Origin: Aureibaculum flavum
Lineage (GTDB): Bacteria; Bacteroidota; Bacteroidia; Flavobacteriales; Flavobacteriaceae
DNA: 64,000 nt
Assembly: GCF_016406085.1 (NCBI RefSeq)
Contig: NZ_JAEHFJ010000003.1
Location: 1-64,000 of the forward strand
Reading direction: 5' to 3'
Shown: piece after piece, positions 6,177-61,357 of the stretch
Position numbering within the stretch: the first letter of the stretch is position 1
Layout of the letters: every line of letters begins with the position of its first letter
Position numbers and translations under genes: made by a program
Notes under the pieces: generated by a model
Databases searched by the model: none
What the model was told of the DNA's origin: nothing
Seen by the model: the letters and a program-made list of their open reading frames with translations, nothing else

Positions 6177-6327
6177 TTACTATAAACTTTTGTTGAGCTC
6201 CTCCCTTTGTATAAATACAGGTGGATTCCAAACTCTTTTCACTCATGTGTCTGATTATTGCCACTCCAGTTTCATTAATTGAAGTGTTCAACTAGTTACT
6301 ATAAACTTTTGTTGAGCTCCTCCCTTT
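6105..6327 (+). repeat. Tandem duplication of the DUF3995 gene tail
   Basis: The 104 bp at 6105-6208 (last part of the DUF3995 gene and bases after its stop) recur at 6224-6327. Both ends are identical, including GATTCCAAACTCTTTTC and AACTAGTTACTATAAAC, while the middle has diverged by many substitutions. A remnant of the palindromic CCTCCCTTT element separates the copies. The second copy is non-coding. Confidence 0.85.
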
Positions 6328-6381
6328 AGATAAAGGGAGGTGGATTCCGACTTTTTCAGTCGAAAGACGGAGGGTTTGAAA
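6319..6381 (+). repeat. 63 bp palindromic repeat, copy 1
   Basis: It starts with the hairpin CCTCCCTTT-agat-AAAGGGAGG, continues with TGGATTCCGAC, a second hairpin GACTTTTTCAGTC, and ends GACGGAGGGTTTGAAA. 61 of 63 bases match the copy at 6519-6581. Direct orientation, non-coding, typical of dispersed intergenic elements in Flavobacteriaceae. Confidence 0.85.
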
Positions 6382-6518: not shown

Positions 6519-6581
6519 CCTCCCTTTAGACAAAGGGAGGTGGATTCCGACTTTTTCAGTCGGAAGACGGAGGGTTTGAAA
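6519..6581 (+). repeat. 63 bp palindromic repeat, copy 2
   Basis: Second direct copy of the element at 6319-6381, differing at two positions: agaC for agaT in the first loop, and GTCGG for GTCGA in the second hairpin, where this copy forms the better stem. Confidence 0.85.
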
Positions 6582-45982: not shown

Positions 45983-48900
45983 TTAACCTACAATATTTAC
46001 AATTTTACCAGGCACTATAATTACCTTTTTAGGTGTTCTACCTGCCAACTGTGCTATCGTTTTTTCATGTGCCATAACCGCTGCTTCAATTTCATCTTTG
46101 GTTAAATCTAAAGATAAGTCCATAGTAAAACGCATTTTTCCATTGAAAGAAATAGGATAGGTTTTACTACTTTCTACCAAATAACTACCATCAAATTCTG
46201 GAAAAGGTGCTGTTGAAATAGACGTATTATGACCTAATTTACTCCACAATTCTTCTGCAATGTGCGGAGCATATGGTGAAATTAATATGATTAATGGTTC
46301 TAGAATTGCTCTGCTGTTGCATTTTTCTGCGGTTAACTCATTTACAGCAATCATAAAAGTAGATACCGAAGTGTTAAAAGAGAAATTCTCAATATCTTCT
46401 TCTACTTTTTTAATGGTTTTATGTAAGGTTTTAAATGACTCCGAAGAAGGTTCAACACCCCCCACGCCCCCCTCAAGGGGGGAATTAGTCACATAGAAAC
46501 TTCCGTTTTCACCGGTGTGATACAATTTCCATAATTTCTTTAAAAAACTATGTACTCCTGTAATCCCTGCGGTATTCCAAGGTTTTGCTTGTTCTAATGG
46601 ACCTAAAAACATTTCGTACAAACGTAAACTGTCCGCTCCGTATTGCTGACAAATAGCATCGGGATTTACAACATTATATTTGGATTTAGACATTTTTTCG
46701 ACTTCTCTCTGAGAGAAATATGGCGTCTCTTCCAAAAATACAGAATCTGAATACTGCAACGTATTTAGCAGAGCCTCTTTGTTAATCTCATCTGTTAGTC
46801 CCTTTAGTAGGGAAATATCTAAGTTTGGTCTAATTAATCTATCCGAAGAATATGAAATTTTCATTCCTTCATTTTGATTTTCGAATTGCTCCACCCATTC
46901 ATCCACCAAATCATTTTTGCCATACTCTTTAACATCATTGAAAACATCTTCAGAAACAATTAAAGATTTCGGAGCTTTGATAGCTTTAGTCAATTTATCA
47001 TTATCCTTAAATGAAGTTTTTCCCTCTAAAAGAAATGAATTATTAAGATTGGTTTTGACTTTTAACAACAAAACATAAACAAACGCACTTGTCCCCAAAA
47101 TCATACCTTGATTAATCAACTTCTTTGCAAACTCATCTTTAGGAACCAACCCTTTATCAAACATAAATTTTTGCCAAAAACGGCTGTATAATAAATGCCC
47201 CGTTGCATGCTCGCTACCACCGATGTATAAATCAACATCTTGCCAATAATTTACAGCATCTTGTGAAAATATTTCACCCTCATTATGAGGATCCATATAA
47301 CGGTTAAAATACTGCGAACTTCCTGCCCAACCCGGCATGGTGTTTAATTCTAAAGGGTGTACCGTTTTGTTATCAATTTTACTATTATCAACAACCTGGT
47401 TCGTTTCCGTACACCAAGCCCAAACCTCAGCATTGCCTAATGGCGGTTTACCATCTTCAGTAGGCAAGTATTTTTCTACTTCAGGTAAAACAATTGGTAA
47501 ATATTTCGGGTCTATCATTTGCGGTAAACCATTCACATAATACACAGGAAAAGGTTCTCCCCAATAACGCTGGCGACTAAATACCGCATCACGCATTCTA
47601 TAATTTATCTTTTTATAGCCAAATCCACGTTTTTCAATTTCATAAATGATAGTTTTCATCGCCTTTTTATAAGGCAATCCATTTAGGAAATCAGAATTTG
47701 CTATAACTGTTTTGTCTTTATCTGCATATGCTTCCTCAGAAATATCCACCCCTTCAAAAATATTAGGGATAGCAATGTTGAAATGCTTCGCAAAATCATA
47801 ATCACGTTGATCACCACACGGTACAGACATAACCGCACCTGTACCATAACCTGCCAATACATAATCACCAATCCAAATTGGTATTGGTTCTTTAGTAAAA
47901 GGATGCTCTGCATAGGCACCTGTAAACGCACCTGAAATGGTTTTCACATCTGCCATTCTATCCAATTCACTACGTTTTGCAGTAGCCTTAACATACGCTT
48001 CTACTTCAGCTTTTTGAGCATCAGTTGTTATTTTGGTCACCAATTCATGTTCTGGTGCCAAGGTCATAAAACTTACTCCGAAGATAGTGTCTGGACGGGT
48101 TGTGAAGACTGGGATATCCCATCCTTTAGTTGGGACCTCCCCCAACCCCTCCGAAGGAGGGGAGTTTAGTTCTTGATTTATTTTTAAAAGTACGTTATCA
48201 ATGTCATTTAAAACCTCTTCATTAGTGAAACGTAACACTTTAAAACCTTTCTTTTGTTCTAGTAATAATTGTCTTTCAGCGTCCGCGTTTAATTGGTATT
48301 TATGAATTCCACCATCAACTTCAATGATTAATTTTTTTTCAATACAAACAAAATCAACTATATAATTAAAAATTGGATGCTGTCTTCTAAACTTAACTTT
48401 AAGACCTTTCTTTTTTAGAATTTCCCAAAGTTTTGCTTCCGCTAAAGTTGGATTCTTACGCATTTCCTTAGCTCTATCTAAAAGAATGCCGTAAATGTCA
48501 GAATCACTCGTTCTATAACGAGGCTCCGTTCCACCTCCTTCGGAGGGGGCTAGGGGGAGGTCTCCCGTTGACAGGACCTTAAACGACACCATCGCCCCTT
48601 CAGATCTACCAATCCAATTGGTTTGCGAATCCTTAAGCGGTTGTGGCCAGTCAATTTTATTTAAACCATCTAACAAACGTTGAGCATATGCAGAAATACG
48701 CATACTCCATTGTTTCATTTTTTTACGTTCTACGGGATGTCCACCACGCTCTGAAACGCCATTTACAATCTCATCATTTGCCAGAACAGTACCCAATGCA
48801 GGACACCAATTTACTTCCGTTTCAGACAAAAATGTTAAACGGTATTGTAAGAGTATTTTTTGTTGTGCTTCGCTCGAAAAAGCATTCCATTGTTCCGCAG

Positions 48901-49462
48901 TAAAGGGTTCAATACCATCATCTGACGCTGCATTAACTCCGGCGTTCCCTTCCTTCTCAAAAACAGAAATTAGGCTAGAAATATCTTCTGCCTTATCTGA
49001 ATCTTTGTTGTACCAAGAGTTGAATAATTGAATAAAAATCCACTGTGTCCATTTATAATAATTAGGATCAGAAGTACGGACTTCACGAGACCAATCGAAA
49101 GAAAAACCTATTTCATCTAATTGGCGTCTGTATGTTTTTATATTCTCAGCAGTAGTTACAGCAGGATGTTGTCCTGTTTGGATAGCATATTGCTCAGCGG
49201 GTAATCCAAAACTATCATAACCTTGCGGATGCATTACATTAAACCCCTTATGCCTTTTATATCTAGCATAAATATCAGAAGCAATATACCCTAAAGGATG
49301 CCCTACATGTAAACCTGCACCACTAGGATAGGGAAACATATCTAACACATAAAATTTGGGTTTTTCAGAACCTTCCTCACCAGGATTAGCTGCTTTAAAA
49401 GTTTGTTTTTCTGCCCAGTACTTTTGCCATTTGGCCTCAATTTCATTAAAATGGTAACTCAT
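45983..49462 (-). CDS. leuS: Leucyl-tRNA synthetase with in-frame DUF559 insertion
   Basis: A 1159-residue class I synthetase that charges tRNA-Leu. HIGH motif is HVGH in AGLHVGHPLGY (about 50-60), editing-domain block FTTRPDTIFG just after 450, KMSKS with M924 in EKMSKSKYNVV, and a C-terminal anticodon-binding domain. Bacteroidota LeuRS is usually near 940 residues. The surplus has three sources: a 143-codon element with a DUF559 endonuclease domain (residues 301-443), a small palindrome-derived insert (about 994-1006), and an expanded stretch before KMSKS (between M787 and M924). The frame is intact throughout, so the gene is probably functional and essential. No intein splicing motifs are seen. 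Confidence 0.93.
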   Translation of the reverse strand: MSYHFNEIEAKWQKYWAEKQTFKAANPGEEGSEKPKFYVLDMFPYPSGAGLHVGHPLGYIASDIYARYKRHKGFNVMHPQGYDSFGLPAEQYAIQTGQHPAVTTAENIKTYRRQLDEIGFSFDWSREVRTSDPNYYKWTQWIFIQLFNSWYNKDSDKAEDISSLISVFEKEGNAGVNAASDDGIEPFTAEQWNAFSSEAQQKILLQYRLTFLSETEVNWCPALGTVLANDEIVNGVSERGGHPVERKKMKQWSMRISAYAQRLLDGLNKIDWPQPLKDSQTNWIGRSEGAMVSFKVLSTGDLPLAPSEGGGTEPRYRTSDSDIYGILLDRAKEMRKNPTLAEAKLWEILKKKGLKVKFRRQHPIFNYIVDFVCIEKKLIIEVDGGIHKYQLNADAERQLLLEQKKGFKVLRFTNEEVLNDIDNVLLKINQELNSPPSEGLGEVPTKGWDIPVFTTRPDTIFGVSFMTLAPEHELVTKITTDAQKAEVEAYVKATAKRSELDRMADVKTISGAFTGAYAEHPFTKEPIPIWIGDYVLAGYGTGAVMSVPCGDQRDYDFAKHFNIAIPNIFEGVDISEEAYADKDKTVIANSDFLNGLPYKKAMKTIIYEIEKRGFGYKKINYRMRDAVFSRQRYWGEPFPVYYVNGLPQMIDPKYLPIVLPEVEKYLPTEDGKPPLGNAEVWAWCTETNQVVDNSKIDNKTVHPLELNTMPGWAGSSQYFNRYMDPHNEGEIFSQDAVNYWQDVDLYIGGSEHATGHLLYSRFWQKFMFDKGLVPKDEFAKKLINQGMILGTSAFVYVLLLKVKTNLNNSFLLEGKTSFKDNDKLTKAIKAPKSLIVSEDVFNDVKEYGKNDLVDEWVEQFENQNEGMKISYSSDRLIRPNLDISLLKGLTDEINKEALLNTLQYSDSVFLEETPYFSQREVEKMSKSKYNVVNPDAICQQYGADSLRLYEMFLGPLEQAKPWNTAGITGVHSFLKKLWKLYHTGENGSFYVTNSPLEGGVGGVEPSSESFKTLHKTIKKVEEDIENFSFNTSVSTFMIAVNELTAEKCNSRAILEPLIILISPYAPHIAEELWSKLGHNTSISTAPFPEFDGSYLVESSKTYPISFNGKMRFTMDLSLDLTKDEIEAAVMAHEKTIAQLAGRTPKKVIIVPGKIVNIVG
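46467..46482. repeat. C/G-rich palindrome inserted in leuS
   Basis: CCCCCC-tcaa-GGGGGG, with flanking C/G runs (CCCCCCACG on the left). Translated on the minus strand as SPLEGGVGGV (residues 994-1003), a stretch out of character for LeuRS between well conserved segments (WKLYHTGENG before, KTLHKTIKKVEEDIE after). Same core as 40735-40748. Confidence 0.8.
48134..48562 (-). mobile_element. Palindrome-bounded element with DUF559 endonuclease domain, in frame in leuS
   Basis: The element is 429 bp, exactly 143 codons. On the minus strand it starts GACCTCCCCCTAGCCCCCTC and ends in an inverted, slightly diverged copy of that sequence; each end also contains a CCTCC/GGAGG hairpin. Residues 337-432 form a DUF559 domain related to Vsr-type PD-(D/E)xK nucleases: E342 in TLAEAKLWEIL, RRQHP (358-363), D370 in YIVDFVC, E381 and D383 in IIEVDGGIH with H387, and VLRFTNEEV. 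All expected catalytic positions are kept. It sits just before the FTTRPDT block at the edge of the LeuRS editing domain. Element status is inferred from the repeats, exact frame and domain. Confidence 0.85.
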
Positions 49463-57402: not shown

Positions 57403-57429
57403 AAAACACGTTCAAGTTGAACGTGTTTT
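57403..57429. repeat. ACACGTTC palindrome of array unit 1
   Basis: AAAACACGTTCAA-g-TTGAACGTGTTTT, perfect 13 bp arms, then TT. Related hairpins occur at 58082-58108, 58741-58770 and 59308-59335 (just before gyrB), marking the end of each unit. Confidence 0.85.
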
Positions 57430-57556
57430 TTATTTTAAAGATATTCGCACCTGAGCTAAACGAAATCAGTTCATTAGGAAGTGTTTAATATGCAATTATC
57501 TATTTGATTTTAAAGCGATTATTAATAAAATGTTAAAATAAAAATACGCTTACCAA

Positions 57557-57591
57557 CTTAAGAATATCTTTAGATTTTACACATACATTTG
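57557..57591 (+). promoter_or_regulatory. Array promoter 2: direct-repeat operator and -7 box
   Basis: CTTAAGA (57557-57563), CTTTAGA (57568-57574), nine bases, TACATTTG (57584-57591). Same spacing as unit 1. Confidence 0.75.
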
Positions 57592-57645
57592 AAGTAACAA
57601 AACAAACAAAACTAAATATTAATTAATTTAAAAAAACACAAAATT

Positions 57646-57978
57646 ATGAGAAAATTAAGTTTCCTAGCAGCAGTTGCGGTAATGAGTTTAGTAAGTACTA
57701 CAACTTTTGCACAAGAAGAAGAAGTTATTGAAGTAGTAGAAGTTGTTGAAGCTGCACAAGAAGAAAGTGTTGAAATTCAAATAAGCGAATTACCAGAAGC
57801 TATAACAACTACAATAGCGGCTGATTTTGCTGATTATACTGCTGACAAAGCTTTTAAAGTTTTAAAAGATGAAAAAGAAGCTTATTCAGTAATTTTATCC
57901 CAAGAAGGTCAAACTACTATCAAAGTTCTTTTTGATTCAGAAGGTAAAGTAATTGAGCAAGAAGACGCTCAACTTTAA
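57646..57978 (+). CDS. PepSY-like secreted protein, array gene 2
   Basis: A 110-residue near copy of array gene 1: the differences are in the signal peptide (T for A before TFA), the acidic linker (V for A), and one position in the domain (EAYSV for ETYSV). Flanking DNA is also nearly identical, and start-to-start distance is 679 bp, showing a recent tandem duplication of the whole unit from promoter to terminal palindrome. Confidence 0.8.
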   Translation: MRKLSFLAAVAVMSLVSTTTFAQEEEVIEVVEVVEAAQEESVEIQISELPEAITTTIAADFADYTADKAFKVLKDEKEAYSVILSQEGQTTIKVLFDSEGKVIEQEDAQL

Positions 57979-58019
57979 AAATATTAAAAAAAGCAAATTG
58001 GGTTGATTGCTTTTAATTG

Positions 58020-58056
58020 AACAGCTTAACACTACTTTTTTGTTAAGCTGTTTTTA
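58020..58056 (+). terminator. Array terminator 2
   Basis: AACAGCTTAAC (58020-58030) and GTTAAGCTGTT (58042-58052) with T-run, identical in stem to terminator 1. Confidence 0.9.
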
Positions 58057-58081
58057 TTGAAATAAATTTGAATTATTTTAC

Positions 58082-58108
58082 AAAACACGTTCAAGTTGAA
58101 CGTGTTTT
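58082..58108. repeat. ACACGTTC palindrome of array unit 2
   Basis: Same perfect 13 bp arms as in unit 1. Confidence 0.85.
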
Positions 58109-58235
58109 GTATTTTAAAGATATTCGCACCCGAGCTAAACGAAATCAGCTCATTAAAAAGTGTTTAATATGCATTTATCTATTTGATTTTAAAGTGATTA
58201 TTAATAAAATGTTAAAATAAAAATACGCTTAACAA

Positions 58236-58270
58236 CTTAAGAATATCTTTAGATTTTGCACATACATTTG
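58236..58270 (+). promoter_or_regulatory. Array promoter 3: direct-repeat operator and -7 box
   Basis: CTTAAGA (58236-58242), CTTTAGA (58247-58253), nine bases, TACATTTG (58263-58270). Confidence 0.75.
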
Positions 58271-58323
58271 AAGTAACAAAACAAATAAAACTAAATATTA
58301 ATTAATTTTAAAAACACAGTATT

Positions 58324-58647
58324 ATGAAAAAATTAAGTTTCCTAGCAGCAGTTGCAGTAATGAGTTTAGTAAGCACTACAACTTTTGCACAAGAAGTAGA
58401 AGAAACAGTTATTGAAGCTGTTGCTCAACAAGAAGACAAAGTTGAAATTCAAGTAAGTGAATTACCAGAAACAGTAACAGCTACTTTAAGTGCAGACTTT
58501 GCTGATTATTCAGCTGACAAAGCTTTTAAAACAATGCAAGATGAAAAAGAAGTGTATTGGGTAGCATTGTCAAAAGAAGATGCGAATATTAAAGTACTTT
58601 TTGATTCAGAAGGTAAAGTAATTGAGCAAAAAGACGGAGATCTTTAA
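58324..58647 (+). CDS. PepSY-like secreted protein, array gene 3
   Basis: A 107-residue paralog with the same signal peptide (MKKLSFLAAVAVMSLVS) and ending (IKVLFDSEGKVIEQKDGDL). The linker is shorter and differs, and the domain has diverged (VTATLSADFADYSADKAFKTMQDEKEVYWVALSKED, written here in part as AFKTMQDEKEVYWVAL). Start-to-start distance from gene 2 is 678 bp. It is the older member and its YWVALSKE stretch is closest to the truncated gene 4. Confidence 0.8.
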   Translation: MKKLSFLAAVAVMSLVSTTTFAQEVEETVIEAVAQQEDKVEIQVSELPETVTATLSADFADYSADKAFKTMQDEKEVYWVALSKEDANIKVLFDSEGKVIEQKDGDL

Positions 58648-58679
58648 ATAAAGCAAATTGGGTTGATTGCTTTTAACAG

Positions 58680-58715
58680 AACAGCTTAGTTTCACTAAAC
58701 GCTAAGCTGTTTTAT
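58680..58715 (+). terminator. Array terminator 3
   Basis: AACAGCTTAG (58680-58689) and CTAAGCTGTT (58702-58711) with T-run. The stem differs in sequence from terminators 1 and 2 by a compensated pair, so pairing is conserved. Confidence 0.85.
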
Positions 58716-58740
58716 TACAAAATATATTTGAATTAATTTT

Positions 58741-58770
58741 AAAACACGTTCTAATTTTAGAGCGTGTTTT
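58741..58770. repeat. ACACGTTC palindrome of array unit 3
   Basis: AAAACACGTTCTAA and TTAGAGCGTGTTTT pair over 14 bases with one G-T wobble, then a long T-run. Confidence 0.8.
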
Positions 58771-58863
58771 TTTTCATTTATCGAAGTTCGATATTTAAAT
58801 TAGTTTTGGTTCCAGCTGACCTCTTCTATTAATAAAATGTTAAACTTTTAATCCATCAATTAC

Positions 58864-58898
58864 CTTAAGAATATCTTTAGATTCACATTCTATATTTG
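58864..58898 (+). promoter_or_regulatory. Array promoter 4: direct-repeat operator and -7 box
   Basis: CTTAAGA (58864-58870), CTTTAGA (58875-58881), nine bases, TATATTTG (58891-58898). Kept although the gene behind it is truncated. Confidence 0.75.
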
Positions 58899-58919
58899 GT
58901 CTTATAAAATTGAAAAAAC

Positions 58920-59063
58920 ATGGAAAACGAAAAAGAATTATTCTACGTAACCTTAGCTAATAAAAGTGCAAAAGTCAAATTCATTTTTAATGCTAAAGGA
59001 AAATTATTAAAAAAAGAAGATGTAAAAGCCTTATTAACAACAAGTTTAGTTGGTTCTTTTTAA
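58920..59063 (+). pseudogene. Truncated PepSY-like gene, array gene 4
   Basis: A 47-codon ORF, MENEKELFYVTLANKSAKVK followed by FIFNAKGKLLKKEDVKALL and a short tail. It matches only the last third of the array proteins (DEKEVYWVALSKEDANIKVL and DSEGKVIEQKD); signal peptide, linker and first part of the domain are lost, and the start codon now follows the promoter after 21 bp. If made it would stay in the cytoplasm. A decayed copy is more likely than a functional gene, but the reading frame and promoter are intact. Confidence 0.6.
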
Positions 59064-59075
59064 TTTCCTACAAAA

Positions 59076-59110
59076 CTTTAGAAAGTCTTTAGATTCTCTT
59101 ATTACATTTG
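59076..59110 (+). promoter_or_regulatory. Array promoter 5: direct-repeat operator and -7 box, no gene
   Basis: CTTTAGA (59076-59082) and CTTTAGA (59087-59093) form an exact direct repeat with the same 11 bp period; nine bases later TACATTTG (59103-59110). It is followed within about 30 bp by the unit's 3' region, with no coding sequence between. Confidence 0.75.
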
Positions 59111-59114
59111 AAGT

Positions 59115-59209
59115 AACAAAAAACACTAAATTAAAAACGGAGCAAATTGGGTTGATTGCTTTTAATTGAAACAGCTTAATATATTACTACACATTAAGCT
59201 GTTTCTTTT
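59115..59209 (+). ncRNA. Possible short RNA from gene-less array unit 5
   Basis: An intact regulated-type promoter leads directly into a terminator with no ORF between. If transcribed, the product is about 90 nt with two hairpins and shares sequence with the 3' ends of the array mRNAs. It may be a relic or a small RNA; nothing in the sequence decides. Confidence 0.3.
59168..59209 (+). terminator. Array terminator 5
   Basis: GAAACAGCTTAAT (59168-59180) and ATTAAGCTGTTTC (59193-59205) with T-rich tail. The transcript from promoter 5 would be about 90 nt and consist of the AGCAA/TTGCT hairpin plus this terminator. Confidence 0.85.
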
Positions 59210-59307
59210 TCTTTAAAATCCATTATGCCAAACAATAAAACACTCTAAATTTAAATACCTCTCTTTTGAAGAGAATTTGTTAATAACTTACGTTATTTAA
59301 CGACCTT

Positions 59308-59335
59308 GAAAACACGCTCAACCGAGCGTGTTTTC
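59308..59335. terminator. Hairpin before gyrB
   Basis: GAAAACACGCTC-aacc-GAGCGTGTTTTC. Related to the palindromes closing array units 1-3, and so probably the original from which they were copied. Lies between the array and the gyrB promoter. Confidence 0.75.
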
Positions 59336-61320: not shown

Positions 61321-61337
61321 GTAAAACCCATCCCTGA

Positions 61338-61357
61338 CCCTTCCCAAGGGGGAAGGG
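61338..61357. repeat. C/G-rich palindrome after gyrB
   Basis: CCCTTCCC-aagg-GGGAAGGG, 17 bp after the gyrB stop. Same style as the dispersed palindromes in leuS and the trp spacer; preceded by ACCCATCCCTGA. May act as a hairpin end for gyrB mRNA but has no T-run. Confidence 0.65.

Follow-up and report, generated by a model that had tools for sequence, protein, structure and literature searches.

In-frame DUF559 endonuclease inserts with hairpin ends in leuS of Aureibaculum flavum and in other bacterial housekeeping genes: candidates for a homing-like mobile element

The insert in leuS

The window analysed here, a stretch of 64,000 nucleotides from Aureibaculum flavum (contig NZ_JAEHFJ010000003.1, positions 1 to 64,000), carries on its minus strand the leucyl-tRNA synthetase gene leuS (45983..49462), whose product of 1159 aa is encoded by a single open frame and was matched by TIGR00396 (leuS_bact) at 865 bits, in four stretches. 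An element of 429 bp, or 143 codons, is placed in frame in this gene (48134..48562, minus strand), corresponding to LeuRS residues 301-443, and the ORF of 1159 codons runs uninterrupted across it. These coordinates had been proposed in a first-pass annotation of the sequence and were recovered here. In the alignment of LeuRS from the genus, the insert occupied the loop between GRSEGAMVSF and VFTTRPDT, which we take to be the start of the editing domain, in agreement with the insertion point before FTTRPDT that had been annotated. An AlphaFold2 model of the whole LeuRS, graded only moderate because of its mean pLDDT of 71.5 and pTM of 0.64, placed the insert between strands 286-296 and 449-454 as an alpha/beta domain of its own, whose flanks (306-316 and 436-447) had pLDDT <50.

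The insert codes for a DUF559/Vsr-like endonuclease domain (48167..48478, minus strand), which was matched by Pfam DUF559 (PF04480) at E 1.7e-34 in LeuRS and at E 4.3e-36 for the insert alone (123.6 bits, against a curated cut-off of 20.6). The presence of this domain had been anticipated at residues 337-432, and the Pfam span proved slightly wider (329-432); the residues E342, D370, E381, D383 and H387, named as likely catalytic, were found at exactly those positions. When the domain was modelled alone by AlphaFold2, its core was mostly above 90 pLDDT, with 94 of 169 residues at >=90. A profile of the family's inserts matched two PDB entries, 3hrl (E 1.2e-32) and 3r3p (E 4e-8), the latter being the catalytic domain of I-Bth0305I, deposited as 'Mobile intron protein'. 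The same two structures headed the Foldseek results (E 7.7e-7 and E 3.3e-5, with a target TM of 0.75 for 3r3p), Vsr being found lower in the list (E 0.037), and a PADLOC homing-endonuclease model matched weakly (27 bits, E 7.7e-7). In the alignment with the 3r3p chain, E381 was paired with E, but the acidic residues D370 and D383 were paired with A and N, so that the two active sites cannot be called identical. Phage homing endonucleases typically have additional DNA-binding regions, according to the available part of the source (PMC3943268), and the family profile search found no DNA-binding region beyond DUF559 in the insert. Pfam still describes DUF559 as a protein of unknown function.

The inverted ends reported in the first-pass annotation were confirmed as two complementary repeats, one of 15 nt (48146-48160 and 48534-48548, 100% complementary) and the other of 16 nt (48134-48149 and 48547-48562, 88% complementary). 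The 5′ (upstream) end (48531..48562, minus strand) comprises an outer C-rich arm followed by a hairpin around GAA, and the 3′ (downstream) end (48132..48162, plus strand) is an inverted copy of it, each end being a GC-rich hairpin around GAA/TTC. An end model, R1, was built from 20 ends, four of them from the 64-kb window, and it matched the upstream and downstream ends at E 2.4e-4 and E 0.007, respectively, both ends being themselves among the 20 rows that built the model.

Homing elements usually come with splicing, and inteins bring a nuclease into conserved sites of essential proteins. The usual association of homing with splicing, together with inverted ends that could pair in the mRNA, would favour the removal of the insert by an unrecognised intron, by intein-like splicing or by ribosomes bypassing the segment across its paired ends. 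Against it, leuS presented no match in Rfam, with no intron RNA found, and the family profile searches of leuS and the insert returned neither an intein family nor a splicing domain among their matches; the insert resembles inteins in its placement in an essential protein but matches none of their families. In addition, the frame was kept with that of the host in nearly every copy read, and the terminal fusions found in HisD and IspF, described below, would require neither splicing nor bypassing. Removal of the insert by any of these routes is very improbable.

Related inserts and their hairpin ends

When 199 genomes of the family were searched with the insert, the 25 best matches, its own included, were in open frames of 416-1251 residues, and the matches ranked after them were in small frames of the length usual for DUF559. 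When GTDB contigs were scanned with an alignment of 30 inserts (A1, 30 of 31 rows, with L053 left out), at least 80 loci were obtained. With freestanding copies included, matches were obtained in 43 of 296 genomes in a survey of the order (E<=1e-20) and in 145 of 395 genomes in a survey of the phylum (E<=1e-25). Dereplication reduced 162 DUF559 ORFs to 144, of which 117 frames, representing 116 loci, had at least 220 aa among the matches listed; the LeuRS locus L081 was counted twice, because its insert is broken into two frames. Hosts were named by blastp class and NCBIfam, RecG being recognised by eye, and some host matches fell below curated cut-offs, as expected for split hosts. Among the matches listed, the 117 frames were assigned to LeuRS (57), MetH (18), RecG (14), IleRS (6), ValRS (3), RecJ (2), LegC (2), IspF (2), HisD (1) and other proteins (12).

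The inserts occupied two sites in LeuRS and at least two in MetH, and they were C-terminal in HisD and N-terminal in IspF. Other hosts comprised guanylate kinase, acetylglutamate kinase, an RdgB-type frame, LegC-type aminotransferases, a nucleotide-sugar dehydratase/epimerase-like protein, a CoA-transferase, an RNA methyltransferase, a glycosidase, helicases and HsdR. Ordinary fusion of domains may account for some hosts, such as the restriction enzymes, and in some N-terminal cases the insertion may lie upstream and merely read as an open frame. Loci found later corresponded to additional MetH copies and second-site LeuRS copies. The exceptions to the open frame were L081, from a 64%-complete draft, whose insert is broken between two frames, and L280, which contains a stop. 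The earlier statement that LeuRS has no such domain did not hold, since inserts recur in the LeuRS of Bacteroidota at the very same site.

Among the matches listed, the inserts were nearly all in Bacteroidota, with one Patescibacteria-type LeuRS (L158) that carries the insert at the same LeuRS site and with hairpin ends. Record titles naming other phyla accompanied 4 of the at least 80 GTDB loci; L121 and L164, which have such titles, were not in large frames, and the MetH copy from a Nitrotoga bin (L143) is probably misbinned, given that its host and that of a family member share 87% identity. This case, and the many relatives that are metagenome bins, would be expected if the inserts were an artefact of assembly, binning or annotation. 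Nevertheless, named isolates carry them too, as does a complete chromosome (Cellulophaga baltica, Gillisia mitskevichiae and Maribacter halichondriae), the Patescibacteria LeuRS looks real because it shares only 42-46% identity with the four Bacteroidota LeuRS to which it was compared, and independent finds were repeated, so that an artefact is given practically no weight. The searches for phage and plasmid carriers pointed to none: the phage search gave 2 records, at 41% and 38% identity, the plasmid search gave 39 records, all below 60% identity, and the annotated ones among the 10 listed were endonuclease or DUF559 proteins.

Hairpins also accompany the domain in the rest of the family. In 114 inserted copies (3 of the 117 were omitted for being near a contig end), the highest-scoring hairpin next to the domain reached a median score of 12 on the left and 11 on the right, against 6 in the controls, which were 2280 windows taken from the same ORFs. 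A score >=10 was reached on both sides in 76 of these 114 copies and on neither side in 15, compared with 87 of the 2280 control windows; in small-frame DUF559 genes, it was reached on both sides in 3 of 25. When the left end of each copy was compared with the reverse complement of that copy's right end, a score >=12 was obtained for 40 of 114; swapped ends gave such a score in 64 of 570 pairs, and control pairs from host genes in 0 of 514. Two copies from Prevotella, L108 and L117, apparently occupy one and the same site in IspF; over 53 bp, the right end of the former is the reverse complement of the left end of the latter, with 50 identical positions. The idea that pyrimidine/purine ends are specially stop-free in six frames was rejected, with 64 of 175 ends (37%) open against 35% of shuffled copies.

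End-like hairpins were also observed apart from the element. In the genome of the window, R1 matched at least 33 places at E<=1 when 150 of 309 candidates were scored, four of the matches being R1's own rows; under the same scoring, at least 22 were on contig C27, six on C20, three on C1, one on C3 and one on C12. The six on C20 are the two ends of the element, two solo hairpins and two matches beside a freestanding DUF559 gene. The first solo hairpin (46454..46482, plus strand) lies in frame in the part of leuS that codes for the C-terminal region, where it contributes the peptide NSPLEGGVGGVE; its R1 match is weak (E 0.17) and it is itself among the R1 rows. A similar peptide was present in the LeuRS of G013 and absent from G001-G003. 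The second (61325..61356, plus strand; R1 E 0.007, also among the R1 rows) is intergenic, bordered by ORFs that, recognised by eye, are presumably gyrB and malate dehydrogenase. The hairpins that flank the freestanding DUF559 gene on C20 are of opposite polarity. Finally, two of the three matches on C1 form an intergenic hairpin pair devoid of nuclease, at C1:626497/626610. End-like hairpins are thus dispersed, and the form with a nuclease may represent one state of a family of repeats.

The number of R1 matches and the nuclease-free pair would fit a passenger of REP/MITE type, whose hairpin ends would be mobilised by a different enzyme, such as a RAYT/IS200-type transposase, with DUF559 as cargo. 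Consistent with this, the same loop is occupied by a hairpin-only piece or by an unrelated repeat in other LeuRS of the genus, and the literature on REP elements (PMC3733652) describes both intragenic and RAYT-linked REPs, palindromic repeats that, like the leuS element, often form inverted pairs. However, REP/RAYT systems rely on a GTAG tag and a Y1 transposase, whereas GTAG (or CTAC) was present in 0 of the 20 ends of set A4, and the leuS element has a Vsr-like nuclease instead. The single Y1_Tnp match in the window's genome is a truncated ORF, frame-broken by eye, and no intact Y1 transposase was found there, although an enzyme encoded elsewhere may act on the ends. Moreover, a domain that is simply carried along would not need to retain its acidic residues, which are present in 114 of 114 copies, and recurrent allelic sites fit homing better. 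A passenger of this kind is considered unlikely, albeit the strongest of the alternatives.

Site occupancy, divergence and lateral movement

To the in-frame architecture and hairpin ends of the family are added recurrent sites and a patchy presence. Rather than a LeuRS site filled throughout and lacking end repeats, the 14 aligned members of the genus presented five filled sites (G000, G001, G004, G005 and G008), seven empty ones (G003, G009, G012, G013, G014, G015 and G016) and two with only a short piece, which resembles one hairpin end in G002 and is a different repeat in G006. Outside these 14, G011 carries a partial copy at the end of a contig, in G007 the LeuRS match ends short of the site, and G010 gave no match there. 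The alignment of relatives, which the first-pass annotation had recommended for finding empty sites and a target duplication, therefore supplied the former but not the latter: no target-site duplication was seen by eye at the sites compared, where the linkers are too variable, and no fixed target sequence was seen at these sites. At the RecG site, which was read at 15 loci of the genus (two of 17 genomes, G011 and G016, were left out), seven loci had a short linker (a 30-residue segment), four were filled and four were intermediate (38-54 residues). The RecG segment of the window's genome would be a deletion scar, since the site is filled in its close relatives G001 and G002, and the longer linkers in general are probably scars.

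A domain tree was built with 140 rows and 128 columns (the 144 ORFs minus three that were too short and one of the two L049 copies), and 54 of its 136 inner forks were open. It separated 15 ordinary freestanding rows from the other 125 (91/85), of which 11 were in frames <220 aa. The view that DUF559 is usually free-standing consequently requires a qualification for this subfamily, which as sampled is mostly inserted, apart from the 15 freestanding rows; because the wider searches began from inserted copies (A1 and A2), freestanding members of the clade may be undercounted. RecG inserts formed one clade (98/94), and so did those of ValRS and those of RecJ, while LeuRS requires 12 changes on the tree. 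The supported groups included mixtures of LeuRS site 1 with site 2, of MetH site 1 with site 2, of LegC with the nucleotide-sugar enzyme, and of RecJ with the CoA-transferase and LeuRS.

Hosts and inserts were compared for 46 of the 57 LeuRS rows, 11 second-site copies, fragments and partial rows being set aside, and L158, which has a long branch, was omitted from a second host tree. The LeuRS hosts of the five filled genus members formed a clade (95/92), and their inserts fell in three places. Forcing the five inserts together lowered lnL by 156 (AU p 6e-105), in a test chosen after viewing the tree, the genus being a natural group; simple vertical inheritance of a single LeuRS insert in the genus was rejected on this result. 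Similarly, the insert of L024 was grouped with that of L148 at 100/100, a pairing rejected by the host tree (p 2e-6).

Synonymous divergence was compared between inserts and hosts in hand-picked pairs. In RecG L177/L179, dS was 0.03 for the insert and 0.37 for the host; the corresponding values were 0.45 and 1.43 in RecJ L099/L103, 0.67 and 2.47 in LeuRS L024/L148 (L148 being the same sequence as L070), and 0.38 and 0.76 between the window's genome and G001. Since insert dS was below host dS in most of these chosen pairs, small gaps are no evidence and only the large ones count. The insert had the higher dS in four pairs (L024/L023, L022/L020, L066/L110 and L064/L105), and the two values were about equal in L151/L078, which indicates inheritance that is vertical over stretches. 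With such mixed results in the chosen pairs, a general rule that inserts are always younger than their hosts was discarded. In RecG L177/L179, conservation extends over the insert and perhaps 20-40 codons downstream of it, as gene conversion would produce; such a tract was plain only for this pair among the five plotted. Taken together with the mixed groups of the domain tree, these comparisons show by computation that the inserts have moved laterally and have changed host gene.

The catalytic-type residues are conserved under purifying selection. E342, W346, D370, F371, E381 and D383 were identical in 114 of 114 aligned inserted copies and H387 was kept in 109 of 114, with the caveat that copies found by a profile are biased toward conserved ones. 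Insert dN/dS was 0.02-0.18 in 19 of 23 non-identical pairs and 0.24-0.42 in the other 4 (one of the 23 repeats the same sequences and one has saturated dS; codons containing N were skipped). The highest value belonged to the RecG pair G001/G002, in which H362 and H387 were lost, and host dN/dS was often below that of the insert.

Purifying selection is also what a host-domesticated domain would display, that is, one ancient insertion per site that acquired a useful function (for instance, DNA-damage or phage sensing) and was inherited mainly vertically and often lost. The vertical stretches noted above, with RecG inserts in one clade and insert dS comparable or higher in several pairs, agree with such a history. 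It is at odds with the genus LeuRS inserts, which are not one clade, with RecG L177/L179, which indicates recent transfer, with the many unrelated host proteins and with the empty sites in close relatives. Domestication is accordingly regarded as improbable.

Known parallels and the proposed mode of persistence

Several features of the element have separate precedents. EDxHD homing endonucleases, represented by I-Bth0305I (3r3p), possess a homologous catalytic domain and fold, the available part of PMC3943268 supplying the catalytic-domain parallel, and homing into allelic sites would be the parallel; but the PDB entry is named for a mobile intron, whereas no intron was found for the leuS insert, whose domain apparently stays in the host protein. 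Rickettsia palindromic elements, as presented in the part of PMC10969869 that was available, are likewise palindromes in frame in unrelated protein genes, but they have ~150 bp and encode a short peptide, in contrast to the 429 bp, the endonuclease domain and the recurrent allelic sites of the leuS element. The WHO elements of yeasts share unspliced homing, into FBA1, with the reading proposed here (PMC7282813, available in part); they replace the 3′ end of the gene, whereas the leuS element is a small, internal, hairpin-ended bacterial insert for which homing is only proposed. A LAGLIDADG homing endonuclease sequence is also fused in frame to a host gene in mitochondrial rps3, but that fusion concerns one host gene and another nuclease family, and hairpin ends go unmentioned in the available part of the source (PMC7902536).

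Among the titles and abstract openings listed from the open literature, with subscription papers mostly outside it, none described an element like the leuS insert, and those on DUF559 contained nothing about insertions. No LeuRS with an endonuclease domain was found in the part of the open literature that was covered, nor a description combining palindromes of the Rickettsia type with an unspliced in-frame homing nuclease. The element is rated as joining two known kinds because each parallel is known separately and their combination was not found in that part of the open literature; there is a real chance that it deserves a class of its own.

The explanation that we favour, and that we consider moderately probable, is a hairpin-ended, translated-through, homing-like mobile element that codes for a DUF559 (Vsr/EDxHD-type) domain. 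The proposal of the first-pass annotation, a frame-keeping, unspliced mobile element in an essential gene, is supported by these computations and proved to be general rather than confined to leuS. According to this explanation, the element would sit in loops or at the termini of housekeeping proteins, in which it would persist because it is translated through in frame. Its palindromic ends would code for flexible linkers and the nuclease would fold as a separate domain, so that the host protein could still work; both host and nuclease are probably active. Spread would chiefly reach the corresponding site of the gene in other lineages, in the manner of homing elements, with occasional jumps to new host genes. 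We infer that it is driven by the cutting of empty alleles followed by repair, a suggestion strengthened by the homology to a homing endonuclease, and the hairpins presumably take part in the moves to new sites. Loss would proceed by in-frame deletion, leaving short linker scars, and the nuclease would be maintained by the renewal that lateral spread to empty alleles provides.

A more specific proposal, to which we assign an even chance, is that these inserts constitute an undescribed, autonomous, in-frame homing class, in which a hairpin-ended unit has as its only gene an EDxHD-like nuclease that resides within essential enzymes, cuts empty alleles and copies itself into them, with splicing at neither the RNA nor the protein level. 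As part of the same evenly balanced proposal, the class would be distributed in Bacteroidota and, at least once, in Patescibacteria. If this is true, the host enzymes permanently carry a covalently joined selfish nuclease. The general view is that homing elements in essential genes survive by splicing out or by rebuilding the end of the gene, and this family suggests another route of survival in bacteria, that of a tolerated, translated domain. It would explain the odd DUF559 domains found in LeuRS, IleRS, MetH, RecG and other proteins and would give DUF559 a testable role. It would also show how new domains enter old enzymes and supply a natural inventory of loops in which insertions of ~140 residues are tolerated.

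End-like repeats in the Aureibaculum flavum genome

A region at about 257-440 kb on contig C27 of the A. flavum genome (among loci L229-L256) was found to be dense in palindromic repeats resembling the ends of the leuS element, the 429-bp in-frame DUF559 insert with inverted hairpin ends in LeuRS (window 48134-48562). The end model R1, built from 20 ends, gave 33 matches at E<=1 in this genome, of which 22 fell on C27 (150 of 309 candidates scored). In this region the end-like palindromes were interspersed with other repeats, and one solo copy and one of the leuS element's ends had 27 bases in common.

Other palindromes were observed in the window itself: four related ones of the form AAAACACGTTC...GAACGTGTTTT inside 2 kb (57403-59335), and a near-identical pair, CCTCCCTTTAGA(T/C)AAAGGGAGG, at 6319-6340 and 6519-6540, with a spacing of 200 bp.

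Freestanding DUF559 genes

A freestanding DUF559 gene on the window's contig (L005, C20:125902-126225) was flanked on both sides by inverted hairpins whose G/C arm was directed towards the gene, a polarity opposite to that of the leuS element. In the same-genus genome G001, a tandem array (L056, C1:4831728-4834346) comprised four closely similar freestanding DUF559 ORFs, with stops within the listed matches.

Further hairpins and repeats in leuS

The element-bearing leuS also harbored a lone in-frame hairpin in its C-terminal part (window 46454-46482), encoding the peptide NSPLEGGVGGVE; a similar peptide was present in the congeneric genome G013 and absent in G001, G002 and G003. In leuS of G006 (L035), another genome of the genus, a different repeat encoding VIASEAKQS occupied the LeuRS loop used by the leuS element, between GRSEGAMVSF and VFTTRPDT, and this loop therefore takes unrelated insertions.
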